Below are positions 1,495 to 33,066 of a stretch of DNA of 33,066 nucleotides, piece by piece. This DNA is from Prevotella sp. (lineage in GTDB: Bacteria; Bacteroidota; Bacteroidia; Bacteroidales; Bacteroidaceae): positions 1 to 33,066 of the forward strand of contig JAFWQT010000130.1 in assembly GCA_017508965.1 (NCBI GenBank), given 5' to 3'. Every line of letters starts with the position of its first letter. Positions within the stretch are counted from its first letter, which is position 1. The notes below the pieces were generated by a model. It worked only from the letters and a program-made list of their open reading frames with translations. It had not been told where the DNA came from and searched no databases. Position numbers and translations under genes: made by a program.

Positions 1495-3627
1495 TCATTT
1501 TACGATGACCTTGCGGCCGTTGATGATGTTGATACCCTTTTGCGGAGCCGAGAGCCGCTGACCATTGAGATTATAAATGTTTCCATTTCTCATTTTCTCA
1601 TTTTCTGCATTTCTCATTCTCTCAACGCCCGTAGCCTCTTCATCATCCCAATACAGCATTATCTCCTTGGCATTACTGCCGCTGATGGCTTCTGTCAGTA
1701 AGGGCAGATAAGCGCGGTGGGCCGGCATGGAAGCATTATCATCCGCAATCTTAATGAACTTGCCACCCTTCATCATGAAGTTGGTATAGTCGCCATCCGT
1801 TGCAGCAATGTGTTTAGATTCCACGACAGCCACAAGCGAGTTCCCAGCAGGAGCGGTGGTTTCCTCTTTCGTGGCCAAAAGCGTATAACTCTGGTTTGCC
1901 GGGCCTTCTATCAGCACGCCAGTATTGGCAGGTATGATGCCGCCCTCCAGTTTGGACACCTTGATGCCAAGACTGCCGTCCTTATAGGAACTCAGCGTAG
2001 TACAATAGTAAGCCGTCAGTTCTTCGGGGATGATGATGTTATCGGGCGCGCTGAATGTTCCCAATCCGGAAGCCGGAACAGTATAGAGCATAAAGCCTTT
2101 CTGGGTATATAAGGCCGCAATTTCTTCAGCGGAGAGCGCCCTATTATAGAGGCGGGCATCGTCCATCTTGCCCTTATAGTATTCGCCGCCACCATAAGTC
2201 CCGAACCGGAGTTCATTCGAAACATCGTTGATGGTTGAACCCATGGAATAGCCGCCGACATAGCTTCCGTCAACGTACAGCTGGCCGACCTTGTTTTCCA
2301 CGTCCCTGACGAAAGTCACCATGTGCCAATTGCCATCGGCATACGAAGTGGAGGATACGTATCCTGTATAATAACTTCTTCCTTCCCAAATCTCAATCCT
2401 TCCGGAATTGAAACGAAGCAACCATCCGTCATAAAACCCGCCATCCGTCCTCATAAGGTTTCCTAATCCAGAGGTCATCGTACTGCTTACCCATATATTC
2501 GCTGTAAAAGACGTTGTCCCGAAGTTGGCTGCTCCGGCAGCGGTCATCTTGTCATTCCCATCAAAATAATAGGCACTGTTCTCATTGCCGAACCGGTCGG
2601 TTGTCAAAGTCGCGCCATAAACAGTAGCATCCACGCCTCCCGATACAGAATTTGTGGCATCCCCGTCGAACGGCCAATGCTGGACTAATCCGCTTATGAA
2701 ACTTGGGTCGATGACATTTTCTCCTGCATAGGCAAATATCTTCAGCATAGGAATACCAAGTTCGGGGTCTTGCACCCATATTTCATCTGTACGACCAGCT
2801 TGGAGGGCAGCAGCAGTAGTGCCGTCAGAGAGTTGTGTTTCTGTGGCTTGCGTACCTTGTACGGCTCCCCAAGAAGTTTTATAATAACAGTTGTCAATAG
2901 TATAAGGATCGCCTTGCGTTCCAACCCGGATAAAGGTTCCTGTGCTTCCTGAAAAAGAAAAGTAGGTGCCTATAGCCAGACAATTCCTGATAACGGCAGA
3001 ATTACCATTGTAACCGTTCACATGTGACATGATACTACCGCAATGGTAACCAGTAGCCATTTCGCCAGAGAACACACAGTCTTCAATCAGAATGCTACAA
3101 TTCCTTGCTGCTGAGTTATCGCAGCAACTTGCAATACCGCCGATGGTTCCTTGATAATCCCCAGAGCCTCGTACATACATATATGCCGAAACCCAACATT
3201 CTTTTATGGTTACGTTGCCCATAATAGAGCCGACAACACCTCCGGCGGCACAATATTGCTGTTTGATGCTTCCTGCTACATGCAGCTTTTGAATCACGGC
3301 ATCGCCCACAACAGTGAAAGGAGCAACAGCCGATGTCGTCAAATTCATATCATAGTTAACCGTCAGCGTATATCCTTGTCCGTCGAAGATGCCACGATAG
3401 GGGGATTCCATACTTCCCACCATTGTCTGGTCGTCGCCCAAGTCCACGTCAGCAATCAGTTTACCATTAGTCGTTGGTTCGGTTTCAACCAACTCAGCGA
3501 ATTCCTCCCAGTCCTGCACCGACCCGATGAGATAATTGCCGTCGGAATCTTGTTCTATAGCCCATGCACCGGCTGAACAGCCGAGGAGGACAAGTAGCGA
3601 AATGAATAAACGTTTTACTGTTTCCAT
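1495..3627 (-). CDS. Secreted protein with N-terminal beta-helix/GLUG-like region, LamG domain and C-terminal tail
   Basis: A 710-residue protein with a signal peptide ending AGAWA. Residues about 25-300 contain repeats typical of GLUG/M26-like beta-helix regions (FDGQGYTLTVNY, IQKLHVAGSI, GGVVGSIMGNVTIKECWVS, IGGIASC). Residues about 315-505 form a Concanavalin A-like LamG domain, bounded by LVQHWPFDGDATNSV and MDDARLYNRALSAEEIAALY, with YYFDGNDKM inside. Residues about 510-660 are another beta-rich module. The last 27 residues form a tail (IYNLNGQRL ... INGRKVIVK) that recurs in this window. It is the first gene of a minus-strand operon with its own promoter at 3707-3737. A probable role is binding of glycans or host material at the cell surface; no catalytic site is visible. 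The short MRNAENEKMRN segment before the tail is encoded by a simple repeat. Confidence 0.85.
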   Translation of the reverse strand: METVKRLFISLLVLLGCSAGAWAIEQDSDGNYLIGSVQDWEEFAELVETEPTTNGKLIADVDLGDDQTMVGSMESPYRGIFDGQGYTLTVNYDMNLTTSAVAPFTVVGDAVIQKLHVAGSIKQQYCAAGGVVGSIMGNVTIKECWVSAYMYVRGSGDYQGTIGGIASCCDNSAARNCSILIEDCVFSGEMATGYHCGSIMSHVNGYNGNSAVIRNCLAIGTYFSFSGSTGTFIRVGTQGDPYTIDNCYYKTSWGAVQGTQATETQLSDGTTAAALQAGRTDEIWVQDPELGIPMLKIFAYAGENVIDPSFISGLVQHWPFDGDATNSVSGGVDATVYGATLTTDRFGNENSAYYFDGNDKMTAAGAANFGTTSFTANIWVSSTMTSGLGNLMRTDGGFYDGWLLRFNSGRIEIWEGRSYYTGYVSSTSYADGNWHMVTFVRDVENKVGQLYVDGSYVGGYSMGSTINDVSNELRFGTYGGGEYYKGKMDDARLYNRALSAEEIAALYTQKGFMLYTVPASGLGTFSAPDNIIIPEELTAYYCTTLSSYKDGSLGIKVSKLEGGIIPANTGVLIEGPANQSYTLLATKEETTAPAGNSLVAVVESKHIAATDGDYTNFMMKGGKFIKIADDNASMPAHRAYLPLLTEAISGSNAKEIMLYWDDEEATGVERMRNAENEKMRNGNIYNLNGQRLSAPQKGINIINGRKVIVK
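1583..1621. repeat. Simple repeat (ATTTCTCATTTTCTC-type) inside the LamG protein gene
   Basis: The + strand carries short repeated units of TTTCTCAT and TTTCTGCAT. On the coding strand they give the low-complexity MRNAENEKMRN segment just before the conserved C-terminal tail. The position, between domain and tail, suggests a tolerated slippage site. Confidence 0.6.
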
Positions 3628-19020: not shown

Positions 19021-21144
19021 CTACTTCACCACATATTTCTTTCCGTCGCGAACAAAGATGCCATGGGAGGCATTCTGGACTCGCTGCCCATTCAAGTTAT
19101 AAATCGGAGAACGGCCGGAGGCAGCCTTTGCCTGAACCTCCACGATGCCCGTCGGTTCTACTCCCTGGAACGACTCGATAAAGTCGGGCAGATAATAGCC
19201 AAGGTGAGGCGGCTGGTTGTAGGCCACGTTCTGCCAGGCAACGCCCAGGCGATATACATGGTCGTGCATCAGCGTCGGCACACGGTAGTTTGTCGTATAA
19301 GTCGAAGAATAGACATTGATAGAAGAGGCATCGGTTGAGTTCCAAAGAATTACTTCTTCACGCCAGTCGCCAAAGATATCGGCCTGCAGACAGGGCGTGG
19401 CCTTGGTGCTGTTGCACGAGGCTGGACTGCCCGTAGCACGGCTGGCAGCCAGACTCAAAGTGCTGATGTTTCCCTTGTCCCACTTAGAGATAGTAATATC
19501 GTTCAGCAACTCTTCCTGCGCATCTCCGTCCCAGAAAATGCGGAAGTTCATGCCGGGATTCGTATCATATATGCTGCGCCCTTTGCAATTATAGGTAGAT
19601 GTCTGCGTGGCAAACGTAAACTCGCAACCACGATATTCGGCGTCCCAGTCGGCTGCCAGTCCACGGCCCGTGTCACGGTCACGCTGTCCGCTGCTAATCA
19701 CCTCGCCCGTTCTTGCATCGTGGATATCATAGCCGTAGCCGATGCCGGCATCCTTATTCTCGTAGGCTTCCTCGTGCACGTCCATTATCTCATAACCAGG
19801 ATGGTCGGGATCCAAGTCAGCCAAGTGCATGGCATCGCCATGACCGAAGCCAACGGCATAGAGCAGCTTTCCGTCGTTATCAATAGTGGCCGAACCGTAG
19901 CACACTTCATCGCAGCCGTCGCCATCCACGTCGGCCACCGAGATATTATGGTTTCCGTTGCCCCATGCAGTATAACTATAGGGAGTCTTTCCGGTATTCG
20001 AGCTATAGGTCTGGGTAGTCTTTGTGAAATTCGAGTCGTAATGATCCACCTGCGTCTTCGACACCGAAGCGTGAAGCCACTTCGTCTTCAACTCCGTTCC
20101 GTCCCAGTCGACCGCCCAAATGTAAGCCTTGGTGTAATAGCCACGACACATCACGGCACTCGGATTCTGGTCGGGACCGTCCAGATAGGCCACACAGGCC
20201 AGGAAACGGTCGGCACGGTTGCCGTAGTCGTCATTCCAGAAGCTCTTTGCCGGATAGGCACTGGTCTTGTTCATCTCTCCTGCGCGGGAAGGATTGTAGT
20301 GGATGGTGTGCATGGCTGCACCCGTCATGCCGTTAAACACTGTCAGGTATTCCGGTCCTGCCAGCACATGTCCCAGTCCCTTACTCACCGTCCCGGTGTT
20401 GCGATAGTCGGTGGTATTACTTGCATTCTTGATTTCATCAATGGTTGCAGCCTCCGTTACATACTTGCCCTCGCCGTCGGAACTTCCCGGAGCAGTCTTG
20501 CAAATCATCTCTGCCTTGCCGTCGCCGTCGAAGTCGTAGACCATGAACTGGGTGTAATGGGCACCGGCACGGATATTGATGCCTAAGTTGACGCGCCACA
20601 ACTGGGTACCGTCGAGCTTGTAGCAGTCGATGATAACAGGATTGGAATAGCCTGTATTGGCATTGTCCTTTGAGTTCTCAGGGTCCCACTTCAGGAAAAT
20701 CTCATACTGTCCGTCGCCATCTACGTCACCCACAGAGCAATCGTTGGGATAATATTCCTTGCCGTCGAGCTTTTCGGGACGGTTCAGTGGAATCCTAAGA
20801 TATCCCTGCGCCCAGGGCTTCACTTCGGGCGTGACATCAACCTTCTGTCCGTTTTGGTAAGTAGCTACCTGGAAGACATCATCCTTACCGGCAGCCGCCA
20901 TGAAGGATGTGGTCTGGTAGATGTTACTCTTGATGGGATTACCATTCTTCAACACTTCAAAGGTGGTGTTCTCATCGTCGGTACCCAACAGGCGCCAGCT
21001 GACAAAACACTTTCCGCTACTTCCCGGAATTGCCACCAGACCACGGTCAAGCTGTTCCATCTGGCTGACGGGAGTGTTCGGTTCTTGCGAGAAAGCCGAA
21101 GCACCCACGACCGCGAACAATGCAAGCAATAATATTTTCTTCAT
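19021..21144 (-). CDS. Rhamnogalacturonan lyase, PL11-type
   Basis: A 707-residue secreted lyase. The signal peptide is MKKILLLALFAVVGASAFSQ. The mature start MEQLDRGLVAIPGSSGKCFVSWRLLGTD and the ends ADIFGDWREEVILWN and HLGYYLPDF are typical of PL11 rhamnogalacturonan lyases (YesW/YesX type), which cleave rhamnosyl-galacturonate bonds by beta-elimination. The propeller has calcium-type DxDGDG loops (DVDGDGQYEIF, DFDGDGKAEM, DVDGDGCDEV) and the GFGHGDAMHLADLDPDHPG segment. The last residues carry the short tail IYNLNGQRV ... DGKKYVVK. The gene starts 7 nt after the stop of the larger PL11 gene, so the two form one transcription unit. Cell location is probably the surface or periplasm. Confidence 0.92.
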   Translation of the reverse strand: MKKILLLALFAVVGASAFSQEPNTPVSQMEQLDRGLVAIPGSSGKCFVSWRLLGTDDENTTFEVLKNGNPIKSNIYQTTSFMAAAGKDDVFQVATYQNGQKVDVTPEVKPWAQGYLRIPLNRPEKLDGKEYYPNDCSVGDVDGDGQYEIFLKWDPENSKDNANTGYSNPVIIDCYKLDGTQLWRVNLGINIRAGAHYTQFMVYDFDGDGKAEMICKTAPGSSDGEGKYVTEAATIDEIKNASNTTDYRNTGTVSKGLGHVLAGPEYLTVFNGMTGAAMHTIHYNPSRAGEMNKTSAYPAKSFWNDDYGNRADRFLACVAYLDGPDQNPSAVMCRGYYTKAYIWAVDWDGTELKTKWLHASVSKTQVDHYDSNFTKTTQTYSSNTGKTPYSYTAWGNGNHNISVADVDGDGCDEVCYGSATIDNDGKLLYAVGFGHGDAMHLADLDPDHPGYEIMDVHEEAYENKDAGIGYGYDIHDARTGEVISSGQRDRDTGRGLAADWDAEYRGCEFTFATQTSTYNCKGRSIYDTNPGMNFRIFWDGDAQEELLNDITISKWDKGNISTLSLAASRATGSPASCNSTKATPCLQADIFGDWREEVILWNSTDASSINVYSSTYTTNYRVPTLMHDHVYRLGVAWQNVAYNQPPHLGYYLPDFIESFQGVEPTGIVEVQAKAASGRSPIYNLNGQRVQNASHGIFVRDGKKYVVK

Positions 21145-21151
21145 AAACCTT

Positions 21152-24100
21152 TTACTTGATTACAACTTTTCTGCCATTCTTGATATAGATGCCTTTCTTC
21201 AGCGGAGTCTTCACCTGGTTTCCATTCAGATCGTAAATCTTGCCGTCGTTGTTGCTGCCGGCAGAAACAGACTGAATAGCCGTAGTCTTCTTGACCACAC
21301 GCAGCGTTCCGGTCTTCGTCAGCAATTCGCTGGTATCCCAACCAAGTCCGCTGGGCAATGCCGGAAGGTTAATGGCCGAAGGAGTTCCCGAGACGCTGCC
21401 TGCCGTCCACATACTGAAGGAGTCACCCTCAGAAGGAACGAAGCCATCGCCCAATCCGATATTGATTTCACCGTTCAGCTGCAGTTCGCCTTTTACCGTC
21501 AGGAACGAGCGTGAATACTGATTTCCGGCATTGCTGAAAATCTGCAGGTTGAGCTTCGTGCCTGGATACAAGTACAAGAATCCTGTCGACGTGATGGCTC
21601 CGTAATGACGTGCGGTAGAGAGATTTCCCGGTTGCAGCACGGCGTTTTCCATGAAGCGGATGTTACCCACAGTGCCGAGTCCGGTCAACTGCGCCTTACC
21701 CTGTACGGTTGCGGTTGCCGTGCCAAAGAGCGACGTTTCCAGTTTGTCGTTATTCAAACGGATCTCACCGCCTTTGAAGACGTATTCGTTAGCAGGGAGA
21801 GCCTTCGAGAACTTCCACATTCCACTGCCTTCCTTGAATACATTTACCTTTCCTTCAAACGTGCCATTATAATTGATGTCCTGATTAAGTCCACCTACCG
21901 TGAGAGTTCCCGTAAGACTCAACACACCAGAACCCGTGAGATGACCCAAGGTAAGATTGTGGCTGCCGCCCACGAAGGTTATTCCACTGAGGATGTTCAG
22001 CGTTGCCTTAGGCAAACCGTAGCTATTATCCCAGCTGAACACGGGGTCATAACTTTCCCACTTCACGGTATGAGGAATCAACGTTCCTTCAAACTTACTC
22101 CAGTCACCCTGTAGATAGTTTCTTACCCAAGGGGCATAGACGTGAAATGTGCCCTTACCAGTGAGGCGGCCTTTATAGTTACAACGGCCATCAAGATATA
22201 CTGTACCCGTACAGCCTTCAGGAACCTCCCAGTTTGCATTGCTAGTCGAGGAGGAAGAGGAGGCATTAATATCATAAGGATCATTGACCGTCACATTTGA
22301 ACCGTTAAAGACAATCAGGTCGGGCACTGAATGAGTGGCTCCCGATTCGCTGAAGCCAACCGTGCCACTGTTCAAATAGAGTTTAGAGAAGTTGTTGCCC
22401 GTTCCCATGACCAGTTTGCCTGCACCGGTCTTAGTCAGAATGCCATTCGATCCCGACTTCTTCACGGCATTGTCAAGCGTCAGCGTAACTCCCGAAGGCA
22501 CTTCGATTGTTCCGCCATTGGCGCGCAGACTAACAGGGTTCGAACTCGTCATCGTCTTACTTACGGCCAGCGTACCGCCGTTCATCGTAATCACATTGCC
22601 GGCACTGCCAAATGCGCCATATTCCACACCGTTGCCATTGGCCAGCGACGAGACGGTCACCTTGCCACCGTTCAACATAGTAGAACCGGTATATTTATTG
22701 GTATTGTTGATGGTCACGTTGCCCGTTCCGTCGAAGGTGAGCGTGGCGTTGCCGCCGATGGCACTTCCGCTGAGCGTATAGTCCTTAGAATTGTTCTTGA
22801 ACACCACGCTCGACGGATAGATATCCGCAGCAATCTCCACGTTGGTGGTGGAGGCATTGTCGTCGAACACGATGGCATCGCCCGAAACGAACTCAGAGGC
22901 AGCATTCGAAGTGTTCTTGAAGTTCTTGGTATAGTTCAGGTCCCAAACGGAGCCCTCGTTGCCGTTCCAAGTCAATGTGGTTGCCTCGCGCAGGCTGCCC
23001 ACCGAGAGATAGAGCTTGCCGTCGCTATAGCTGAGCTTGGCATCCAGACCGTCAAGCCCTTCGGTCACCAGGTCGTCCAGACTGCCCTCTATGCTGCCAA
23101 TCTCGCCAATCAGATAGTTGCCCTCGGCAAGTTTCGAGCTGCCGTTGGCCGAATGAGTGACGAACTGGAACACGGGAGCTGAATACTCAGGACCATACTG
23201 CCAGTTCTTCTTCTCAAGACTCATCGAAGTAGCCTTGATGCAGTCGGCCTGCTGTCCCTCGCTGAACACATCCAACACCACACGGGCACCGAAGCCCAGC
23301 GCCATCGTCGAGGTGGTCAGCGTTCCGGCATTGTCCTTTCCGCCGGGATAGATAGTGGCATTATAGTCGGCCTTGATACCGCCATTGAACTGTCCGCCAT
23401 TCGAGATCAGGTTGGTGTGGCGGTTCAGCCATACGGGGCTAGACGCCATCACGCCGTCGAACTGCAGCGTTCCGGCCCATACGTCGGTGTTGCCGGTATA
23501 AGTCTCGGTTACGGTAGGCAATACCAGCACGCCGTCGCCCTGCTTCACCAGTCGCATGCCGCCAGTAAAGGCGCCGCCGGTCAGCGTGTGGGTATAGGTG
23601 TCGGTGGTGATGTAGTCGTTGTCGTCGTGTCCCTGCACCCATGTAGGCGCATTGTCGAAGAAGATGTAGGGTGACGCACCGTTGTCAACGCTCACCGTAG
23701 TGTTGCCAGTCTCGCAGAGAATAATCTGCTGGTCGTTTTCGCTGGAACCGATGCTGCCGACAACTTCCTTGCGGCCAGTCATGGTGAGTGGTGGCGGAGC
23801 CATGGTGATGCCTTCCAGTTCGCCAAGGAAATAGCTGACGTGGGGCGGCTGGTTGTAGCCACACATCTGCCACACCATGGCGTTGCGGTACTGGGTGTCG
23901 TGCCACAGCGTGTAGTTGCGCCAAGGGGTCTCCTCGGTGGTGGTATAGATGCGGAACTTATTGTCAGACGTGCGCATGATGACTTCCTCACGCCAGTCGC
24001 CCAGGATGTCGCCCTGATAGCAGGGAGTGGCCTTCGTGCTGTTGTTGGTCAATCCGCCAGGCAGGTTCCACGTACGTCCGGTGTCGAAGCTGGAAATGTT

Positions 24101-25597
24101 TCCGTCGAAGAGTTCTTCGCAGAGGTCGCCGTTCCAATAAATACGGAAGTTCACGCTGATGTTCGAGCCTATTCCCACATGTTCATTATAGACTGTGCTG
24201 ACGGGCAGGTCGTGACCTGATGAGCCCAGGCAGCCGGGATAGTTGTTCGAGAAGTTACCGCAGTTGGAGCGTCCGTCGTCGCCGCCGCCTGCCTTACGGT
24301 AATAAATCTTCGAAGTGGTTGCGTCGCGATAGTTATTGGCAGGATTGTCTTCGTTGCATGCAAAGATTTCCTGTCCATGCACGTAGGGGTTGAAGTCGCC
24401 GCAATGCTGGGCATCGCCGTGACCAAGGCCTGTGGTGGAAAGACCGTTTCCGTTATCGTCGATAACCATCGAACCGAACACAATCTCGTCGCGTCCGTCC
24501 CAGTCAACATCGGCTATTCCGAAGTTATGATAGCCCTGACCATACCATGGACTACCAGCCTCGTTGCATTCCCAGCGCCAGCTCTCGGTCAGTCGGCCGC
24601 CGCTCACATTCAGCGCCACCATCTTGTGGCGGGTGTAGATACCGCGGGCAATAAAGATGCTCGGGGTGCGGCCGTCCAAGTAAGGCGCACCAAAGAAATG
24701 CTTCGTAGAGCGGTGGCCGTAGCCGTCGCCCCATGCCGCGGCCAGGTCGGTCTCGCCTGGCTCCAGTCGCTTCAGCGGATATTCAATCTGGTCGATTACC
24801 TCACCGGTCTCGCCGTTCAGATAGAGCAGATACTCATCGCCCTGATGCACGAACCACTGGTCAGAGTTCGTAGAGCCAAGATAGTTCTTCGAGGCATCGC
24901 CGATGGTGATCACCTGTCCCGTTGAGGTATGAATCTTGGTTCCGTCGCTGGCACGCAGCACGGCCTCGGCCTTGCCGTCACCGTCCCAGTCGTAGGCAAT
25001 AATGTTCTGCTCGTTGTTCTGGAAGTCGGCCATGTTGGGACCCCAGTCAATCCACCAGAGTTTCCTTCCGTTCAGCTTATATACCTCCATGATGAAGTAC
25101 TCGCCGTTGAAGCCGGCCTTCTGGTACGATTTTTCGGCCCAGCTCCTGTTATCGAACTTCATCAGTATCTCAATCTCGCCGTCGCCATCCACGTCGGCAC
25201 AGCACACATCGTTGGGAACGAAGGTGCTGGTCAGACTGCCATGGTTGGGTGTAATCTCGAGATATTCCTGCGACCAAGGCTTCACGGGGTCGCACTTAGC
25301 CTGTGCTGTTCCGCGCACCACGGCCTCCACCTGATAGGTGCTCGAGGCCGAGCCGCCGTTATCGGTATAATTAGAAACCGTCAGGGGTTCTGAGTTCAGT
25401 TTCGTGCCGTTGCGGTAGATGTTATAGGTAACATCATAGTATTCCTCGCCAAAGATACGCCAGGTGCAGAACACGCCGCCAGAGGTCTGAACAGCCACCA
25501 GTCCGCGGTCGAGTTTGTCCATCGTTCTTTGGGCATGAGCCGACAATACCATGGTGAACACCAATACTGCCGCCAATAAGAATTTCTTGTAAGTCAT
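21152..25597 (-). CDS. PL11-type rhamnogalacturonan lyase fused to autotransporter-passenger-like region
   Basis: A 1481-residue protein. After a signal peptide (MTYKKFLLAAVLVFTMVLSAHA), residues about 23-620 form a PL11 lyase: MDKLDRGLVAVQTSGGVFCTWRIFGEE, DVDGDGEIEIL, DWDGDGKAEAVLR, DVDWDGRDEIVFGS, GLGHGDAQHCGDF, LGDWREEVIMR, PHVSYFLGEL. From about 640 to 1440 it contains Gly/Asn/Thr-rich beta repeats with autotransporter-associated signatures (LVKQGDGVLVL, YTGNTDVWAGTLQFDG, LTKTGAGKLVMGTGNN, YTGSTMLNGGKVTVSS, LNSGTVGFSESG). No outer-membrane barrel domain follows; instead the protein ends in the tail IYDLNGNQV ... KNGRKVVIK. Normal PL11 enzymes are about 600-700 residues, so the passenger-like half is an addition. 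It probably displays or extends the catalytic domain at the surface. Confidence 0.88.
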   Translation of the reverse strand: MTYKKFLLAAVLVFTMVLSAHAQRTMDKLDRGLVAVQTSGGVFCTWRIFGEEYYDVTYNIYRNGTKLNSEPLTVSNYTDNGGSASSTYQVEAVVRGTAQAKCDPVKPWSQEYLEITPNHGSLTSTFVPNDVCCADVDGDGEIEILMKFDNRSWAEKSYQKAGFNGEYFIMEVYKLNGRKLWWIDWGPNMADFQNNEQNIIAYDWDGDGKAEAVLRASDGTKIHTSTGQVITIGDASKNYLGSTNSDQWFVHQGDEYLLYLNGETGEVIDQIEYPLKRLEPGETDLAAAWGDGYGHRSTKHFFGAPYLDGRTPSIFIARGIYTRHKMVALNVSGGRLTESWRWECNEAGSPWYGQGYHNFGIADVDWDGRDEIVFGSMVIDDNGNGLSTTGLGHGDAQHCGDFNPYVHGQEIFACNEDNPANNYRDATTSKIYYRKAGGGDDGRSNCGNFSNNYPGCLGSSGHDLPVSTVYNEHVGIGSNISVNFRIYWNGDLCEELFDGNISSFDTGRTWNLPGGLTNNSTKATPCYQGDILGDWREEVIMRTSDNKFRIYTTTEETPWRNYTLWHDTQYRNAMVWQMCGYNQPPHVSYFLGELEGITMAPPPLTMTGRKEVVGSIGSSENDQQIILCETGNTTVSVDNGASPYIFFDNAPTWVQGHDDNDYITTDTYTHTLTGGAFTGGMRLVKQGDGVLVLPTVTETYTGNTDVWAGTLQFDGVMASSPVWLNRHTNLISNGGQFNGGIKADYNATIYPGGKDNAGTLTTSTMALGFGARVVLDVFSEGQQADCIKATSMSLEKKNWQYGPEYSAPVFQFVTHSANGSSKLAEGNYLIGEIGSIEGSLDDLVTEGLDGLDAKLSYSDGKLYLSVGSLREATTLTWNGNEGSVWDLNYTKNFKNTSNAASEFVSGDAIVFDDNASTTNVEIAADIYPSSVVFKNNSKDYTLSGSAIGGNATLTFDGTGNVTINNTNKYTGSTMLNGGKVTVSSLANGNGVEYGAFGSAGNVITMNGGTLAVSKTMTSSNPVSLRANGGTIEVPSGVTLTLDNAVKKSGSNGILTKTGAGKLVMGTGNNFSKLYLNSGTVGFSESGATHSVPDLIVFNGSNVTVNDPYDINASSSSSTSNANWEVPEGCTGTVYLDGRCNYKGRLTGKGTFHVYAPWVRNYLQGDWSKFEGTLIPHTVKWESYDPVFSWDNSYGLPKATLNILSGITFVGGSHNLTLGHLTGSGVLSLTGTLTVGGLNQDINYNGTFEGKVNVFKEGSGMWKFSKALPANEYVFKGGEIRLNNDKLETSLFGTATATVQGKAQLTGLGTVGNIRFMENAVLQPGNLSTARHYGAITSTGFLYLYPGTKLNLQIFSNAGNQYSRSFLTVKGELQLNGEINIGLGDGFVPSEGDSFSMWTAGSVSGTPSAINLPALPSGLGWDTSELLTKTGTLRVVKKTTAIQSVSAGSNNDGKIYDLNGNQVKTPLKKGIYIKNGRKVVIK

Positions 25598-25644
25598 TTG
25601 TTTATTAAAGGTTTTAAGTTATTTGCTAGATGTCGCGAATGCGA

Positions 25645-25652
25645 CAAAGGTA
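25645..25652 (-). promoter_or_regulatory. Possible -7 element for the PL11 fusion gene
   Basis: TACCTTTG on the minus strand matches TAnnTTTG, about 48 nt before the ATG. No well-spaced -33 TTTG is visible, so it is weaker than other promoters here. Confidence 0.45.
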
Positions 25653-25786
25653 AGAAAAAAAACTGAAACCCGGAAATTAAGGTCAAATTCTTTAGTTGAT
25701 TTGTTATTTATTGTAGTTTAGGAGTGGAGGAGATTTAAATTAAACACAGAGATACGGAGATACAGAGGTTTTTTCCTTGAGGGAGC

Positions 25787-25881
25787 TGTCCCCACCCCTG
25801 CCCCTCCCCTACAGGGGCGGGGAGTAGATGGTTCTGGACTTGAAGGTAATTGCTCCCCGCCCTATAGGGAGGGGTAAGGGG
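25787..25881. repeat. Paired GC-rich palindromes (inverted)
   Basis: The left part (GTCCCCACCCCTGCCCCTCC and ACAGGGGCGGGGAG) and the right part (CTCCCCGCCCTATAGGGAGG and GGTAAGGGGGAGGGTC) are inverted versions of each other, with about 25 bp between. The layout resembles the MITE-like copies at 3853 and 5353. Confidence 0.6.
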
Positions 25882-25882
25882 G

Positions 25883-25936
25883 AGGGTCTGTTGGGGAGGG
25901 TCTGTTGGGGAGGGTCTGTTGGGGAGGGTCTGTTGG
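25883..25936. repeat. 14-bp tandem repeat, nearly four copies
   Basis: AGGGTCTGTTGGGG is repeated at 25883, 25897 and 25911, with a fourth partial copy at 25925-25936. It directly follows the paired palindrome and stands 11 bp before the PL9 stop codon. Copy number may vary between strains. Confidence 0.85.
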
Positions 25937-25947
25937 AGTGGATCCCC

Positions 25948-27375
25948 TTATTTCACAAACTTCTTCCCCCCTCTAACATAAATGCCTTTGGCCGCGGGAT
26001 GCTCTACGCGATAGCCTTCCATCGAGTAGAAAACATCATCGTTGACGCCTGCACCTACCGTCTTTATACCCGAAGCCACGGCCTCGTAGTCGAACTGGTA
26101 GCCGATGTTCTGGCTGTAGGCCTTCGAGGTGGACTTCAGTTTCAGGAACGTGATTTCGGGCAGCGAACCGTCGGGCTGACGGTCGGCCTTCAGCTGTGTT
26201 CCGTCGAGGCTCTCGAAGTCGGAGACCGTCAGAACCAGCGTCGGCAGGAAAGTGTTGTTTTCCAGCGTACAGAGCGATTCGTCGATGTATGCATAGTTCG
26301 AAGTGGTGCCGGCAAACGAGAGGTTGTTCTTCAGCACATGGTCGTAGCCAGGCACATCAACCGCCTCGGCCACCGACTTGCGGTTCACCATGTTGTAGTT
26401 GCGCTTGTTGGCATACGCCGAGTTGTTATACCAGTCGTTTCCGCCCAGATGATGGTTGGCATAGATGCCGTTCTGCTTGTTCTTCCAGGCGATGCAGTTC
26501 TTGATGACATTCCGCGGGGCCGTCACACTCTTGGTGATGGTGCTCATGCCGTAGCCGCCGCCCTTGATGCCCGTACCGTCGCCGCGCGACACCAGATTAG
26601 CATCGTAGCCGTTCTCCCATGCCCAGCAGCTGTCCACCACCACGGCCGAATAGTTGTTAATCAGGTCGAAGCCATCGTCGCTGTTACGCCAGGCACGGCA
26701 TCCGCGAATCACGTTGTTGGCATGCGCCGCACTCGCAAAATGGAACCCGAAGCCGTCGCAATTGCCGCCTGCCCCGTTTTCCGACACAGGGTCGTAGTTG
26801 TTGTAGGCATCACAGTTCAGCACCAGGTTGTTGCTGCCCCGCGTGAAATAGATGCCGATGCCCATTCCGTCGTGGATGTTCACCTGCTCAATCACACAAT
26901 TGCTGCCCCCGCGCATCGAGATGTTCTCGCTCTGCGTGTGGCCGGTAATGGTCACCTGAATGCCGATGATGTCGAATTTCTTCAGCCGCCAGTAGTTGCC
27001 TTTTACGTAGAATCCGCTGACGCGCTTCTCGGCAGGCTTCACCAGCGAGAGGTCAATCACAGCCTTTTCGTCCTCGTAACCGCTGATCGTGATGGGTTTC
27101 TGTGCCGTTCCGCTGGCCGTCAGGTTATACACGCAGGCATAGAGATTGCTCTCCTGATATCCCATTATCTCAGCCTCCGTGGGCTGGTAGGTGCCTTCGC
27201 GCAGATAGATGGTGGTGCCCGCCGTGGCTTTACTGATGGCTTTCTTCAGCGTGGCAAACGGAGCATCGATGGTTCCCGCATTATCGTCACTGCCTGAAGG
27301 CGACACGTAATAGTCGGCAGCCAGCACAGCCACAGATGCCGACAGCATCATCAAAATAGTAAACAATTTCTTCAT
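25948..27375 (-). CDS. PL9-type polysaccharide lyase (pectate or rhamnogalacturonan lyase)
   Basis: A 475-residue secreted right-handed beta-helix protein. The signal peptide is MKKLFTILMMLSASVAVLA. The mature start DYYVSPSGSDDNAGTIDAPF and ATLKKAISKATAGTTIYLREGTY is typical of PL9 enzymes. The helix coils follow (KPITISGYEDEKAVID, FYVKGNYWRLKKFDI, CDGFGFHFASAAHANNVIRGC, NSDDGFDLINNYSAVVVDSCW, DGTGIKGGGYG, NAPRNVIKNCIAWKNKQNGIYANHHLGG-like). CDGFGFHF and NSDDGFDLI supply the Asp residues of the PL9 calcium site, and the Lys in GTGIKGG is a plausible catalytic base. The tail is KGIYVRGGKKFVK. The two PL11 genes beside it make rhamnogalacturonan I a plausible substrate, but pectate is also possible. 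Confidence 0.9.
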   Translation of the reverse strand: MKKLFTILMMLSASVAVLAADYYVSPSGSDDNAGTIDAPFATLKKAISKATAGTTIYLREGTYQPTEAEIMGYQESNLYACVYNLTASGTAQKPITISGYEDEKAVIDLSLVKPAEKRVSGFYVKGNYWRLKKFDIIGIQVTITGHTQSENISMRGGSNCVIEQVNIHDGMGIGIYFTRGSNNLVLNCDAYNNYDPVSENGAGGNCDGFGFHFASAAHANNVIRGCRAWRNSDDGFDLINNYSAVVVDSCWAWENGYDANLVSRGDGTGIKGGGYGMSTITKSVTAPRNVIKNCIAWKNKQNGIYANHHLGGNDWYNNSAYANKRNYNMVNRKSVAEAVDVPGYDHVLKNNLSFAGTTSNYAYIDESLCTLENNTFLPTLVLTVSDFESLDGTQLKADRQPDGSLPEITFLKLKSTSKAYSQNIGYQFDYEAVASGIKTVGAGVNDDVFYSMEGYRVEHPAAKGIYVRGGKKFVK

Positions 27376-27402
27376 ACACTTTATTAATATATATTATATG
27401 TG

Positions 27403-27434
27403 CAAATATACGACAAATATCTGAAAACTCCAAA
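27403..27434 (-). promoter_or_regulatory. PL9 gene promoter
   Basis: On the minus strand, TATATTTG (27410 to 27403) and TTTG (27434 to 27431) are exactly 20 nt apart. The start is near 27396, about 20 nt before the ATG at 27375. Confidence 0.8.
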
Positions 27435-27484
27435 TACATTCAGCAGAAAAAACGGGCAATGAAAAAGTTGAAAAAGAGTAACTA

Positions 27485-27610
27485 ACTCCCCGCCCCTCAA
27501 GGGGAGGGGTTAGGGGTGGGGTCTGTAATCTTACAAATCTGCCTAATACTCTGCCTCTTTTTCTGAATACTGACCCCACCCCTTGCCCCTCCCCTACATG
27601 GGAGGGGAGT
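27485..27610. repeat. Paired GC-rich palindromes (inverted)
   Basis: A left arm of about 39 bp (27485-27523: ACTCCCCGCCCCTCAAGGGG to GGGGTGGGGTC) and a right arm (27572-27610: GACCCCACCCCTTGCCCC to GGAGGGGAGT) are inverted copies with about 48 bp between. It is the third composite member of this family in the window. Confidence 0.65.
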
Positions 27611-27627
27611 GCAGAAACCTAAGCCCC

Positions 27628-27774
27628 CTATTCCAATAATTCAGGGTTCTGTCCAAACTCATTGGGCAGTTCTGCGTTATCTTTGTACTGCATATTTGCC
27701 GGACGCTTGCGATTGCAAGCCGAAGAAACGTCAAGAAATTTCTTAATTTTGGCGTCCTGAGAATCGCGCGGAAG
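27628..27774 (-). pseudogene. Remnant reading frame without start
   Basis: A minus-strand frame of 48 codons runs from a TGA at 27777 to a TAG at 27628, reading LPRDSQDAKIKKFLDVSSAC then MQYKDNAELPNEFGQNPELL. It has no upstream start and no promoter. The C-terminal 21 residues could start at the ATG at 27693. The wording looks like a broken protein end; I cannot name the family. The rest of 27775-27902 is without features. Confidence 0.35.
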
Positions 27775-27902
27775 TCATCAGATGCATGATGGCAGGCAAA
27801 TACGCGAGTTTTGAGCCGTTATCTGCAACTTGTTGATAATGAGGCTTTTGTGTGAATTAATCTGATTCCCGACTTCCTTTTATAATCTTCTGAACTTTAA
27901 AT

Positions 27903-27953
27903 AAAAGGCTTTTAGACTGTAATTAGGCCCCAATCACAGTCTAAAAGCCTTTT
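27903..27953. repeat. Perfect 18-bp inverted repeat (strong hairpin)
   Basis: AAAAGGCTTTTAGACTGT (27903-27920) and ACAGTCTAAAAGCCTTTT (27936-27953) are perfect inverted repeats around a 15-nt loop that itself contains ATT/AAT arms. It has T-rich flanks on both strands and could be a bidirectional terminator, but no gene ends close by on either strand. Confidence 0.8.
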
Positions 27954-27961
27954 GTTTTGAC

Positions 27962-28027
27962 TTCAAACGATTATCTTTTAAACTTCAAAAGCCTATTATT
28001 TGAAGTTCAAATCCCTATTATTTGCCG
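27962..28027. repeat. Three degenerate 22-bp direct repeats
   Basis: Units start at 27962, 27984 and 28006 and follow TTCAAA-x-x-C-x-TATTATTTG; the second and third share 17 of 19 positions and the first is more divergent. Arms AACTTCAAA (27981-27989) and TTTGAAGTT (27999-28007) also make a hairpin. This follows 8 bp after the 18-bp inverted repeat. From 28028 to 28137 I see nothing else. Confidence 0.55.
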
Positions 28028-28137
28028 AACGGGAACTCTTTTTCTGCTCATCGGAAGCCTAAAAAGGGCTGGGAAGGCTCAAATCCCGCGCTAGTTTTCT
28101 CCATATTATTGCAGCTAATTTGTCGGGGATTTTGATT

Positions 28138-28899
28138 TTACTTCACCATTACTTTCTTGCCATTTCTAATATAGATACCCTTTGAAGGCAACGCCATCCC
28201 TTTTTGTTTTATACCAGACAGAGAATACGTTTCCTTAACGGGATGGGGGCGATATGTGTTATGCTCAATACTAGTTGTACCAAACCGTTCGTCACGATAT
28301 ATTGTGCAGCCATTGCGAGTAAAGGATAGCAGGATGTAATCCCATCCTCCACGTGGAAGAAACTGCTTCCTGAGTAGCCCTTTATTAATGCGGCCTATGC
28401 TGTTAATCACCATTTTAGGTGAATAGTCCTTACTCTGATTGCGATGGGCAGGGAACGTGTCAACACACTCGTACATCTTTTCATCCAAGAGAGTAATTTG
28501 AGATATTCTTGCTATTGTGTCTTGAAAGCATGGGATGGAATCGCCAATCTTCCATGAACCGAATATATACATTAGTCTTTCCTCATCGCCAGAGACTCTG
28601 CTGAAGATGGAGTCTCCATGCTCACGAATGGCATAGCGGTAAGGTTCAGATTCTTCCACCTTGGTATTAGTCGTAATATCAAACAGGGTTTCTTCTACAC
28701 ATTTATACTTCACGCCCTCGATAATGGTGTCGCCAGTAACAACGTTTCTGATTATCGGGCTTTTTATGGTATCATAATAAATCACATAATATGCTTCCTG
28801 CCATGATGTGCCAACGGGGAAATACTCTGTGCTGGTTGCTTGCCCAAACATATTCAGGCAAACCACCGTACATATTCCAATCAATAATTTTGCTTTCAT
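28138..28899 (-). CDS. Secreted protein of 253 residues, unknown function, with C-terminal tail
   Basis: The signal peptide is MKAKLLIGICTVVCLNMFGQA. The mature protein has a beta-rich pattern (YFPVGTSWQEAYYVIYYDT, IIEGVKYKCVEETLFD, YRYAIREHGDSIFSRV, MYIFGSWKIGDSIPC) of about 200 residues, similar in style to small Bacteroidales secreted proteins, and ends in the tail TYSLSGIKQ ... KGIYIRNGKKVMVK. I do not recognise a catalytic motif. It stands apart, with its own -7 element upstream and 760 bp of non-coding DNA downstream, so it may not belong to the lyase transcription unit although it shares the tail and orientation. Codon use appears less GC-rich than in the lyases. Confidence 0.75.
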   Translation of the reverse strand: MKAKLLIGICTVVCLNMFGQATSTEYFPVGTSWQEAYYVIYYDTIKSPIIRNVVTGDTIIEGVKYKCVEETLFDITTNTKVEESEPYRYAIREHGDSIFSRVSGDEERLMYIFGSWKIGDSIPCFQDTIARISQITLLDEKMYECVDTFPAHRNQSKDYSPKMVINSIGRINKGLLRKQFLPRGGWDYILLSFTRNGCTIYRDERFGTTSIEHNTYRPHPVKETYSLSGIKQKGMALPSKGIYIRNGKKVMVK

Positions 28900-28927
28900 A
28901 ACAGAATATGTTTTAGTTTTTATTGCT

Positions 28928-28935
28928 CAAAGATA
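28928..28935 (-). promoter_or_regulatory. Likely -7 element of the 253-residue protein gene
   Basis: TATCTTTG on the minus strand is an exact TAnnTTTG match, 28 nt before the ATG at 28899. The -33 element is not clear. Confidence 0.5.
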
Positions 28936-29012
28936 ATGAAAAAAAACAAGATACGAGCTAATTGAATAAACAATTATATCTTTTTAAGAACTAATGGTGA
29001 ATAAATAAACAA

Positions 29013-29042
29013 TTAAGGGATGCCCAAACGGACATCCCTTAA
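29013..29042 (-). terminator. Terminator-like hairpin after the 733-residue protein gene
   Basis: TTAAGGGATG (29013-29022) pairs perfectly with CATCCCTTAA (29033-29042), 25 nt after the stop codon at 29068 on the minus strand. The T-run is weak. Confidence 0.6.
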
Positions 29043-29067
29043 TATATTGATAATCAGAGATTGCGAA

Positions 29068-31269
29068 TTAGCGGACGATGAACTTCTTGCCCTGCTTCAC
29101 ATATACACCAGGCTTCAGGCTCTTTGCATTGACCTGTACACCATTGAGGTTGTAGATAGGAGCATTGTGGTCGGAAATAACCTGTCCGGCAACGATATCC
29201 TTGATGCCAGAGGTACCCGGAGAGAGCACCTGCACGCGGGTGATGGCATCCTGTACACGATAGAGCTGGAAGGTCTCGAGACCAGAGGAAATGATTTCCT
29301 TGTTATCGCCGAGGTTAGATGCCAGATACTGATTCTTAGCCTCTGCAGGATCTGTGCCGAGCGGGAACTGAGGATGAGCTGAAGTCGTACCGTAGTCGGT
29401 AATCTTAGATACGAGAATCATATCGTTAGAGGTCAGTCCGTCAACACCAAGTGTTACGTAGTTAACAGCAATTGCTGCATAGGAGGCTGTCGAAGAGGTG
29501 TAGAAGTCGCCACCGTCGCCAAGGTTACCAGAGAAGAGAAGACCGATGCCTTCGTACATCTTCACATTGGTGGTACCACCAGTATGTCCAAGATGGTCAA
29601 CCTTAGGTGTTACGCCGTCTTCCTCGAAATACTTGGTAATGCTGGGATCAACACCCGTGGTGCCGTACCAGAGATAGAGGGGAGCGAACAGCGAGTGAGC
29701 TGTCTCCTCGTTCAGGTTGCTCTGCAGATACTGATAGCGCTGGATGGGCTCACCACCAACGGTAGAAGGACCCCAAACCAGATACTTGTCGTAGGTAGGC
29801 TTACCCTCGTCGTCGGTACCGCCATTCTCAATCTGGTAGTAGAGGCGCTGACGGCCAGTCCAGTTGCTTTCGCCTGAAGTGGTCTCGCTGTCCAGCGGAT
29901 CCATAGCTACGAATCCCTTGGCTGTGAGATCAGCAGCGGTGAGATGCTGCAGGTCGATGTCCTGTGTGATTTCGTATGACTGGTCGTTCATGAGCGATGT
30001 GGTGGAAGAATTATAGCCGATTGCCTTTGTGGTAACGGTAAGGGTTCCCTTAGAAGGAACAGTCACCTTGGCACCATTGTTCTGGTTGCTCAGCACGAAG
30101 TCGTCGGTTCCATTCTCAGACTTGAAAGAGAAGTCCATGAAAATCTCGGGCTGCATTTCAACGCCAGAATTGTCGACCGTGAACTGATATACCTTCTCGT
30201 AGCCGGCAGCTGCAGAAACGATAGCATAGGTGGGAGTAGGAAGAACGATGGGCGTGCAATTCACATCCATGGTTGCAGTATCAGAGGTCTTAGTGCCTAC
30301 TGTGGTGTAGGCAGAAATAGTACCAGAGGTTGTGGTGGTGTAAACATACTGACCGAGCACTTCACCGGTGTCGTAGTAACCAATGGTCTTCTGTGAGCCG
30401 TCAGTACCAGTCAGGTGAAGAGTCTCACCCTCCATGAACGAAATGGTATAAGTACGCTCAGAATCTTTCAAACCTGTCAGGGCAATTACAGGAGTATTTG
30501 CAAATTCACCAGGAATGGTGACCTTGATGTTATCGACATTGACAACCGACTGGTAGCGGGCAAGCATCAGATACAAACCTGTGGCATATGCATTAGCATC
30601 TTCAGGCAAAGTAAAAGAACCCTGCTTAGAGAAAGTGTTGTCGAAGTCGGCCATAGACCAGGTTACCTCACGCGTAGTTGTATTGACGGTAAGATTCAGT
30701 TCATACCATGTACCAGCAGCTGGAGTGATAGCATTTGTGGTATCGTTGTAGAGGAACCAATGGGTGATATCTGTGTCGCTAGCGCCTGGGTTTGTTGCTG
30801 CATCAACACTGTTCTGTGCAATGTCAAACAGGCAGTTGTTACTCAGAACACAATAAGGACCGTATGTACCACTTTTCGCTCCATTAGTTAATGCACATTT
30901 TTCATCAGAAAAAATAGCAAGGTTTCCATTGTGTTGTCCCTTCTTAGTATCATTACCAAAAGCCTGGAACTGAAATTCCACATGTACAGAATACTCAGTT
31001 ATAGCACTTTTATCCTCACCGTAAATGCCCTCACCCCAGAAGCAATTGGCAGAACGACCATTTGCCGAACCACCATAGACAGAAAAATAATGACCCTCAG
31101 AATCACCTGCAATAGTGGCTCCGTTGTTTTTTCCAGCTTCAGCTGCATAGGTCCATGTAGATGGAATACCACCTGTCTCGTAGTTCTCCTGGAAGAGAAT
31201 ACGGTCAGCCTTTACAGATGTTGCGAACATAAGCAACATTGCTGTACACAAAAAGTAGAACTTTCTCAT
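29068..31269 (-). CDS. Secreted multidomain protein of 733 residues, unknown function, with C-terminal tail
   Basis: The signal peptide is MRKFYFLCTAMLLMFATSVKA, with no lipobox. Residues about 22-250 (ILFQENYETGGIPSTWTYAA ... YSVHVEFQFQAFGN ... WYELNLTVNTTTREVTWSMAD ... VVNVDNIKVTI) have the layout of a Concanavalin A-like jelly-roll. Residues about 260-345 (GETLHLTGTDG ... GTISAYTTVGTKTSDTATMDV) look like an Ig-like or chitobiase-type beta module. Residues about 350-690 are beta-rich and not recognised. The tail IYNLNGVQV ... KQGKKFIVR ends the protein. It follows the SusD gene after a 155-bp gap and precedes the lyases, so it could bind or process pectin at the surface. No catalytic site can be assigned. 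Confidence 0.75.
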   Translation of the reverse strand: MRKFYFLCTAMLLMFATSVKADRILFQENYETGGIPSTWTYAAEAGKNNGATIAGDSEGHYFSVYGGSANGRSANCFWGEGIYGEDKSAITEYSVHVEFQFQAFGNDTKKGQHNGNLAIFSDEKCALTNGAKSGTYGPYCVLSNNCLFDIAQNSVDAATNPGASDTDITHWFLYNDTTNAITPAAGTWYELNLTVNTTTREVTWSMADFDNTFSKQGSFTLPEDANAYATGLYLMLARYQSVVNVDNIKVTIPGEFANTPVIALTGLKDSERTYTISFMEGETLHLTGTDGSQKTIGYYDTGEVLGQYVYTTTTSGTISAYTTVGTKTSDTATMDVNCTPIVLPTPTYAIVSAAAGYEKVYQFTVDNSGVEMQPEIFMDFSFKSENGTDDFVLSNQNNGAKVTVPSKGTLTVTTKAIGYNSSTTSLMNDQSYEITQDIDLQHLTAADLTAKGFVAMDPLDSETTSGESNWTGRQRLYYQIENGGTDDEGKPTYDKYLVWGPSTVGGEPIQRYQYLQSNLNEETAHSLFAPLYLWYGTTGVDPSITKYFEEDGVTPKVDHLGHTGGTTNVKMYEGIGLLFSGNLGDGGDFYTSSTASYAAIAVNYVTLGVDGLTSNDMILVSKITDYGTTSAHPQFPLGTDPAEAKNQYLASNLGDNKEIISSGLETFQLYRVQDAITRVQVLSPGTSGIKDIVAGQVISDHNAPIYNLNGVQVNAKSLKPGVYVKQGKKFIVR

Positions 31270-31424: not shown

Positions 31425-33066
31425 TCACCATCCGGGGTTCTGCGTGAGCGCCCCACCCGACTTCAGAATTTCGCTCTGTGCAATGGGGAATAGGTACATC
31501 TTGTCGTCCCAGTAAGAACGGGTCTGGGCGTCAGTCTGTACGTTGTAGTTGAACGTTCCGTCGGCATTCTTGGTGATCTGCATGGTCTTGATGGTGCGAT
31601 ACTTGGCATCGCCGGCCTTCTTCCAGCGGCGAAGGTCGTAGAAGCGATGGCCTTCGAAGGCAAGCTCCACGAAGCGCTCGTTCTCAAGTCGCTCGGCAAA
31701 CTGCGAGGCTGAAAGGTCGGTAGCGATGTTGGCAAGCTTAGCACGCGTGCGTACCACGTTCACTGCCTGTGCGGCAGTCATGCTCAGACCGCTGGCAGTC
31801 TCATATCCACCGCCTGTGTAGTTGAGCATAGCCTCAGCGTAGTTCAGGTAGAACTCGCCCAGACGGAAGGTCACCCAATGATGGCGCTCGGTGGTAGCGT
31901 TGGAGGCACCAATCGTCAGACTCTTGTTAACGTACTTCTTCAGATAGTAGCCTGTGGGAGTGGCATAGGCAATGGGCTGACCGTTGGCACCGCCGATGAA
32001 GGTCTCGAGCGTGTTGTTGGGCCATTGCTCGCCATTCTGGGCAACAGTAGCCTCGAGACGGATGTCGCCTTCCTCGTAGGCCTCCACAAGGTTCTGCGTG
32101 GGGCAGTTACCGCCGCCGGCATTCTCAAGACCGATGGGGAAGTTGTACTTCTCGAAAGTGTTTGAGGCAGAAACGATGCGGCGCACGAAGATACACTCTT
32201 CGGAATTCTGCCAGTTGTCCTTCTGGAAAAGGCTTCCATAGTCGGATGTCAGCTTCATGCCGCGGCCCTTGCACTCGTCGATGAGCTCCTTGTTGGCAAT
32301 AGCAGCCTGATGCCAGCGCTCCTTGTCGTTATTTGCATTGAAGAGCGGACTTGCATAATAGAGGGCGGCACGGGCCTTGAGGGCCAGCACGGCCAGGTTG
32401 TTGGCACGTCCGGTCTCGTTCTTGCTCTTCAGCTGGAGATTGCCGAGGTCGCTATAGTCCTTGACGATGAGGTCCTGGATGGCGGCACATTCGGAGATGA
32501 TGAACTGGAAAATCTCGTCGCTCGAAACACGGGGCTGGGTGTTTGCCTCGTTGGCATCGAGGTTGGCAGTAATCAGGGGAACGCCGCCAAACGAGCGCAC
32601 GAGCAGGAAATAGTAGTAGGCACGCAGGAAGCGGGCTTCGTACTGCAGGTTCTGATACTGGTGAATCTCAGCCTTGTAGTCGAGGTCGAGAATGTAATCC
32701 TCGAACGTCTCGTCCTTGAACTTGTCGAGGAAGAGGTTGGCATAGCTGATGCCGCGCCAGCATTTCGTCCAAAGAGAGGCATCGTTATTGCTCGAAGCGC
32801 TCCAGCCGCCATCGTAGAATTTCTCGATGGCATTGCCCGAATGACTGTAGACAGCCTCGTCGGTGGCGGAAGCCAGCAGGGCACCGCTGTAGTTACCGAA
32901 ATCGTAGTCCAAATCATTGTAGGCTGACGTCACAAGACCTGCTGAGCGTGCAAAGGTGGTCTTCACATAGTCCTCGTCATAAACACTGTACTCCTTATAG
33001 TCCATCTTATCGCCACAGGAGACGAGGACAACGGCGGCAGCAACGAGGCTCCATATATTCTTAATT
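31425..33066 (-). CDS. SusD/RagB-family outer-membrane lipoprotein, N-terminus outside window
   Basis: A surface glycan-binding lipoprotein that caps a SusC TonB-dependent transporter. The visible frame continues upstream of the Met at 33005: on the minus strand the last residues before it are NIWSLVAAAVVLVSCGDK, a signal peptide with lipobox LVSC, so the true start lies just outside the window. Family motifs are strong: CWRGISYANLFLDK, LQYEARFLRAYYYFLLVRSFGGVPLI, EFYLNYAEAMLNYTGGG, ENERFVELAFEGHRFYDLRRWKKA and the closing ALTQNPGW. A SusC partner is expected upstream. With the lyases on the same strand downstream it marks a polysaccharide utilisation locus, probably for pectin/rhamnogalacturonan. 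Confidence 0.96.
   Translation of the reverse strand, partial: IKNIWSLVAAAVVLVSCGDKMDYKEYSVYDEDYVKTTFARSAGLVTSAYNDLDYDFGNYSGALLASATDEAVYSHSGNAIEKFYDGGWSASSNNDASLWTKCWRGISYANLFLDKFKDETFEDYILDLDYKAEIHQYQNLQYEARFLRAYYYFLLVRSFGGVPLITANLDANEANTQPRVSSDEIFQFIISECAAIQDLIVKDYSDLGNLQLKSKNETGRANNLAVLALKARAALYYASPLFNANNDKERWHQAAIANKELIDECKGRGMKLTSDYGSLFQKDNWQNSEECIFVRRIVSASNTFEKYNFPIGLENAGGGNCPTQNLVEAYEEGDIRLEATVAQNGEQWPNNTLETFIGGANGQPIAYATPTGYYLKKYVNKSLTIGASNATTERHHWVTFRLGEFYLNYAEAMLNYTGGGYETASGLSMTAAQAVNVVRTRAKLANIATDLSASQFAERLENERFVELAFEGHRFYDLRRWKKAGDAKYRTIKTMQITKNADGTFNYNVQTDAQTRSYWDDKMYLFPIAQSEILKSGGALTQNPGW

Follow-up and report, generated by a model that had tools for sequence, protein, structure and literature searches.

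According to sections of PMC8787155, polysaccharide lyases of family 11 (PL11) hold their substrate by an Arg, a Lys and a Tyr, which are R467, K549 and Y610 in Bo3128. CBM89 (CapCBM89, PDB 7jvi), a carbohydrate-binding module (CBM), is a xylan-binding β-helix, described in excerpts of PMC8810776 as an unprecedented fold among the modules associated with carbohydrate-active enzymes (CAZymes). The short C-terminal domains (CTDs) of the type IX secretion system (T9SS) of Prevotella intermedia comprise 40-51 residues in the seed set and 43-55 in the final short set (sections of PMC11969387). Related in kind only is a Kiritimatiellae 'autotransporter-associated beta strand repeat' protein tagged CBM57 in part of PMC10904984. 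The present analysis concerns a gene at positions 21152-25597 of contig JAFWQT010000130.1 (Prevotella sp., assembly GCA_017508965.1), in which a PL11 lyase is fused to modules resembling autotransporter passengers. The window, that is the whole stretch of DNA analysed, is the entire contig of 33,066 nucleotides, and its source genome is 71% complete in 188 contigs. As judged from sequence, the product is probably a T9SS cargo pectin lyase of a Prevotella-type bacterium, whose passenger-like modules present it to, and probably bind, the plant cell wall; we give this reading a probability of roughly 0.6.

Architecture of the fusion gene

A single open reading frame (ORF) of 1481 residues runs on the minus strand from 25597 to 21152, and plus frame 1 across the same positions is interrupted by stops. 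The earlier note on this DNA, made from the letters and the ORF list, had placed a gene here without naming its strand; the ORF holds and is now assigned to the minus strand, and the claimed domains are borne out by ORF calls and by Pfam, NCBIfam and PDB matches. The order of parts is a signal-peptide-like start, PL11 (24-603), about 835 residues of PATR-bearing all-β sequence and a C-terminal tail, located as follows:

21152..25597, minus strand: the whole fusion protein of 1481 residues, comprising PL11 lyase, passenger-like modules and T9SS-type tail (ORF list, Pfam, NCBIfam and PDB matches)
25532..25597, minus strand: signal-peptide-like N-terminus, residues 1-22, cleavage expected before Gln23 (sequence pattern)
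23789..25528, minus strand: PL11 rhamnogalacturonan lyase region, residues 24-603 (Pfam; PDB YesW, 4cag and YesX; invariant R443, K522 and Y581)
22985..23782, minus strand: module A, residues 606-871, PATR and passenger-type cap
21284..22984, minus strand: module B, residues 872-1438, a longer PATR β-helix and cap (repeat at 22652-22744)
21287..22300, minus strand: residues 1100-1437, the end of module B resembling CBM89 (predicted fold)
21155..21280, minus strand: short T9SS-type C-terminal signal, residues 1440-1481 (35 genome places; tail profile; motifs of PMC11969387)

The Gln directly after the expected cleavage site agrees with the Bacteroidetes Q-rule as given in part of PMC5837995. 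The PL11 domain appears intact and is a putative rhamnogalacturonan-I (RG-I) lyase, as evident from Pfam RGI_lyase at 24-108 (E 1.3e-31; 109.3 bits against a cut-off of 27.8) and RGL11_C at 123-593 (E 1.1e-121; 407.5 bits against 27), both full length, and from the alignment of YesW (PDB 2z8r) along the chain with residues 23-603 (E 1.6e-130); the lyase is thus complete, as had been proposed. R443, K522 and Y581 occur without exception in the 78 aligned proteins and, mapped through the YesW alignment, would be the equivalents of the three Bo3128 residues. A further set of YesW residues, N152, D172, N532, G533, T534 and Y595, was placed by eye and is not used as support: all are kept in the window protein except G533 (S520), and among the 78 rows, 51 have D at position 149 (D172) and 3 have G at position 520.

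Behind the lyase, Pfam PATR matches three stretches from about residue 606 on (best 683-712, E 2.7e-8) and NCBIfam TIGR02601 matches two (E 8.5e-7). Both families are present in the C-terminal regions of all 42 homologues scanned, chosen from 70, which indicates that the repeats are conserved and do not arise by chance. In the source genome, TIGR02601 matches this gene alone (2 matches). A confident structure model is all-β across 600-1440 and, together with the repeat matches, agrees with the β-solenoid envisaged in the earlier note; a comparison with the viral fold library gave no match at E <=0.001.

The β-solenoid sequence expected for an 800-residue stalk is therefore present, but it does not form one plain stalk. 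Modules A and B are found separately in other pectin lyases, which rules out a single uniform stalk: A also occurs in PL11 proteins lacking B, and B follows a pectate-lyase-type (PL1-type) domain, identified from the PDB match of one protein only, in the absence of PL11 in 14 of 144 proteins. The arrangement PL11+A+B was found in 118 of the 144, a set drawn from overlapping named and unnamed collections and hence overlapping in species, which leaves out one locus with a stop in frame (L032), one with an incomplete N-terminus (L058) and repeat fetches (L068-L071), and counts two proteins cut by contig ends (L108 and L115) as carrying both modules. When the profiles were compared with one another, A matched B2 with E 6.7e-5 and B1 with E 1.5e-4, and B1 matched B2 with E 4.1e-8. 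The sequence profiles of the modules match autotransporter passengers and do not match CBM89, and membership of CBM89 by sequence was rejected. In the predicted structure, by contrast, residues 1100-1437, the 338 residues before the tail, carry the β-helix of the CBM89 fold, and 7jvi was matched far better than any passenger compared. A short subfamily of 1365-1383 residues (L097, L100, L104, L110, L121, L125, L131 and L152) lacks exactly 1243-1355 in 8 of 8 examined and still has the short tail.

Export route of the fusion protein

Of the characters of a type Va autotransporter, the PATR β-helix passenger is present and the C-terminal barrel in the same protein is absent, as the Pfam scan revealed no barrel domain after the PATR region; the absence of a barrel had been noticed earlier and stands. 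The barrel family PF03797 gave no match in the source genome, 71% complete, and among 20 fusion genomes there were weak matches in 6, of which one, in a 193-residue frame, lay above the cut-off.

When the last 48 residues were searched against the source genome, 35 matching places were found at E <=0.1. In each of the 30 loci retrieved, a stop follows 0 to 13 residues after the end of the best match, and 28 distinct tails were obtained, two loci having shown a neighbour's tail. A profile of 22 tails from outside the window recognised 6 of 18 window proteins (chosen among 61 ORFs of at least 100 residues) with 55.4 to 36.4 bits, the seventh scoring 0.0; these carriers are the genes beginning at 1495, 19021, 21152, 25948, 28138 and 29068. 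The fusion protein itself scores 55.4 bits at 1436-1481, a test which is partly circular because its own tail was the query that gathered the others. A PDB chain, 8glk_D 'Endonuclease I', which we take to be a T9SS substrate, was weakly matched by the tail part of profile A2 (E 0.053) and is kept out of the argument.

The machinery for this route was located in the source genome as SprA, PorU and PorV, the latter two being adjacent on one contig and both present as in the short-CTD system described in sections of PMC11969387. Among the matches listed in a search of 201 genomes, 71 fusion genomes were taken; SprA is present in 70 of these as against 85 of the 130 others, and the sole fusion genome with no SprA match is 77% complete. 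PorU and PorV were found in all 20 fusion genomes tested. The tail is thus most likely a T9SS C-terminal signal and export most likely proceeds by T9SS, which gives both the Bacteroidales-type tail and the different export route of the earlier note a specific meaning.

Tails vary among the relatives. Of 79 orthologue tails classified by regular expression, the protein with an open end (L151) being left out, 55 are long CTDs, 18 short, 3 dockerin-like and 3 other, the last resembling long CTDs by eye. Among the 42 homologues scanned, TIGR04183 was found in 21, PF18962 in 5, a type C sorting model in 1 and Pfam Dockerin_1 in 3.

Roles of the passenger-like modules

In the mechanism proposed, a secreted RG-I lyase of family PL11 would cross the inner membrane by Sec, as the N-terminal sequence pattern suggests, and the outer membrane by T9SS, to which the tail, SprA, PorU and PorV, and the published work on P. 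intermedia point. The last 42 residues would serve as a short CTD that is bound by PorV and cut by the PorU sortase, presumably leaving the protein on surface polysaccharide. Between enzyme and tail stand two β-helix modules, each ending in a cap that acts as an autochaperone in autotransporters. Most likely, these modules keep the enzyme at a distance from the cell and bind plant cell-wall polysaccharide or align it for the enzyme; binding is suggested by the CBM89 fold predicted for the end of B.

Several observations weigh against this reading. The CBM89 likeness resides in the overall predicted fold, the two binding residues Y62 and E82 could not be mapped onto module B, and three profiles searched against PDB sequences did not find 7jvi at E <=10. 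The gap at 1243-1355 falls inside the CBM89-like part, so that some relatives lack an intact version of this part, and it counts against binding. As for export, the window protein lies below TIGR04183 and PF18962, the standard models of T9SS type A sorting, and the association of SprA with the fusion (Fisher p 3.4e-9) was computed with kinship ignored. Furthermore, 6 of the 144 relatives (L050, L051, L061, L103, L127 and L138) end by regular expression in dockerin-like repeats in place of a T9SS tail, L061 with a Pfam Dockerin_1 match of E 9.9e-11, which indicates that T9SS accounts for only part of the family.

The modules may alternatively be a rigid spacer only, a β-solenoid stalk lifting the lyase off the cell with no binding, as the earlier note had it. 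The all-β character throughout 600-1440 and the match of passengers by sequence and fold are what such a spacer would display, and the loss of exactly 1243-1355 in the short subfamily is tolerable for one. The conservation of residues 595-1440, however, exceeds what a spacer needs, with a mean column identity of 46% in 25 homologues and columns of Trp, Arg and Tyr that never vary, and the fold predicted for the module's end is that of a CBM with demonstrated binding. This fold of the last 338 residues makes a binding role at least as likely as that of a mere spacer, and we regard the spacer as a rather unlikely explanation.

Less probable still is that the modules mainly aid folding and export, an autochaperone-type cap driving folding during T9SS transport as in autotransporters. 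The cargo of T9SS is generally thought to be folded before its passage through the outer membrane, which speaks against such a function. So does the neighbourhood, as the adjacent PL11 and PL9 proteins have the same tail and no PATR. The short subfamily has moreover lost most of the stretch matching the passenger Ssp while keeping its tail, which argues that the module B cap is not strictly required.

That the protein is the remnant of a true autotransporter, periplasmic after the loss of barrel and export, would account for passenger repeats with no barrel; it is very improbable for a gene which is intact and conserved in many species, has a T9SS-type tail and stands in a genome with T9SS genes. 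A false join of two genes during assembly or annotation, conceivable in an assembly of 188 contigs that is 71% complete and named as a possible refutation in the earlier note, is ruled out by isolates and many metagenome-assembled genomes (MAGs) with the same full-length architecture and by the frequency of PL11+A+B.

Neighbourhood, distribution and comparison with known systems

The surroundings of the fusion gene contain the following features:

19021..21144, minus strand: second PL11 lyase, 707 residues, 7 bases downstream of the fusion, with the same tail and no PATR match (ORF, Pfam, tail profile)
25948..27375, minus strand: PL9-like pectate lyase with the same tail (Pel9A-like helix, E 6.5e-96; tail profile)
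28138..28899, minus strand: uncharacterised 253-residue protein sharing the tail (tail profile), without a Pfam match at E 0.01
29068..31269, minus strand: uncharacterised 733-residue protein sharing the tail (tail profile), without a Pfam match at E 0.01
31425..33065, minus strand: SusD-like protein, 5' end open at the contig end (SusD_RagB, E 4.9e-45)
1495-3627: 710-residue protein away from the pectin run, likewise ending in the T9SS-type tail (tail profile)

The five tail genes from 19021 to 29068 form one same-strand run behind the SusD-like gene, and the whole looks like a pectin (RG-I) utilisation locus with extracellular enzymes leaving by T9SS. As the SusD-like gene is cut by the contig end, its usual SusC partner would be on another contig. 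The 253- and 733-residue proteins are possibly glycan-binding surface proteins. Around 80 named loci, some of them cut short, flanks of up to 6 kb were searched for relatives of the neighbours (blastp E <=1e-15): a relative of the 707-residue PL11 protein was found in 36 (23 on the same strand), of the SusD-like protein in 21, of the 733-residue protein in 21 and of the PL9 protein in 2.

Some match to the window protein was obtained in 146 of 201 genomes of the same family, and among the matches listed many span from residue 1-20 to 1400-1481. The scan of named genomes confirmed 456 relatives, and 80 of them were kept; these are labelled Prevotella, Prevotellaceae, Bacteroidaceae and Bacteroidales MAGs, with a few other labels, and include isolates. 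The full-length architecture was found in the isolates Xylanibacter rodentium, Hoylesella loescheii, Hallella bergensis, H. seregens and Segatella buccae; X. brevis ATCC 19188 is also among the isolate relatives and, with others, belongs to the shorter subfamily. The ORFs of the named relatives have the same order of parts, three of them (L108, L115 and L151) ending at contig ends. Among 149 relatives, PL11+A+B occurs in two genomes that belong to other families within the order. Across the phylum, 345 genomes were searched with at most two candidates scored per genome, and 10 besides the source genome matched at E <=1e-10; the strongest (E 7.7e-49), a relative of module B from outside the order-level relatives, lies in a 2331-residue frame, the fetched part of which begins PL1-like by eye, and the other nine cover only about 130-180 profile positions. 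The fusion is thus widespread in Prevotellaceae and its parts are each known; none of the papers listed from the open-licence literature searched was seen to concern PL11 with PATR modules.

A second set of PL11 fusions (L033-L035, L052-L057 and L063-L065) shares about 25-29% identity with the window protein and has module B, module A being diverged or undetected; for L033, a Pfam scan at E 0.01 gave no PATR match.

If the preferred reading of a surface-displayed, wall-binding lyase is true, many Prevotella proteins in which an enzyme part is followed by 'autotransporter repeat' matches only would turn out to be pectin enzymes displayed on the surface and equipped with a glycan-binding module, and two unrelated secretion systems would be shown to use the passenger fold. 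CBM89, as described in part of PMC8810776, would then be linked to autotransporter passengers. For the rumen and gut, the reading bears on the access of Prevotella to plant-wall pectin.

The closest known PL11 enzymes are YesW of B. subtilis, along whose chain residues 23-603 of the window protein align, and Bo3128 and Bo4416 of B. ovatus (sections of PMC8787155); the residues that would correspond to the Arg, Lys and Tyr of that paper are kept. The solved chains of YesW, 4cag and YesX, of 591-620 residues, are without modules A and B and without the CTD, whereas the window protein has all three. The type Va passengers Ssp (8e7f; PMC9977779, in part), IcsA (5ke1) and fusolisin (8axg) resemble the modules by sequence and fold in their PATR repeats and autochaperone-like cap; in contrast to these autotransporters, the window protein has a T9SS-type tail instead of a barrel, and two modules behind a pectin lyase. 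Its 42-residue tail is similar to the short CTDs of P. intermedia in the cut motif T/xI, here T/AI, the Tyr and Gly of motif B, the GxY of motif D, here GIY, and the basic motif E; the sections of PMC11969387 concerned name proteases, adhesins, leucine-rich-repeat and pectin-lyase-fold proteins, and PL11 with PATR modules is not named in them. CBM89 stands N-terminally on a GH10 xylanase and binds xylan, according to part of PMC8810776, whereas the window module is C-terminal on a PL11 or PL1-type domain. From these comparisons we tentatively propose, as a possibility somewhat short of even odds, that passenger domains were recruited in Bacteroidales to form a family of carbohydrate-binding modules, of which CBM89 and modules A and B would be branches, carried by PL11, PL1 or xylanase domains, with the folding cap kept and T9SS in place of the barrel.
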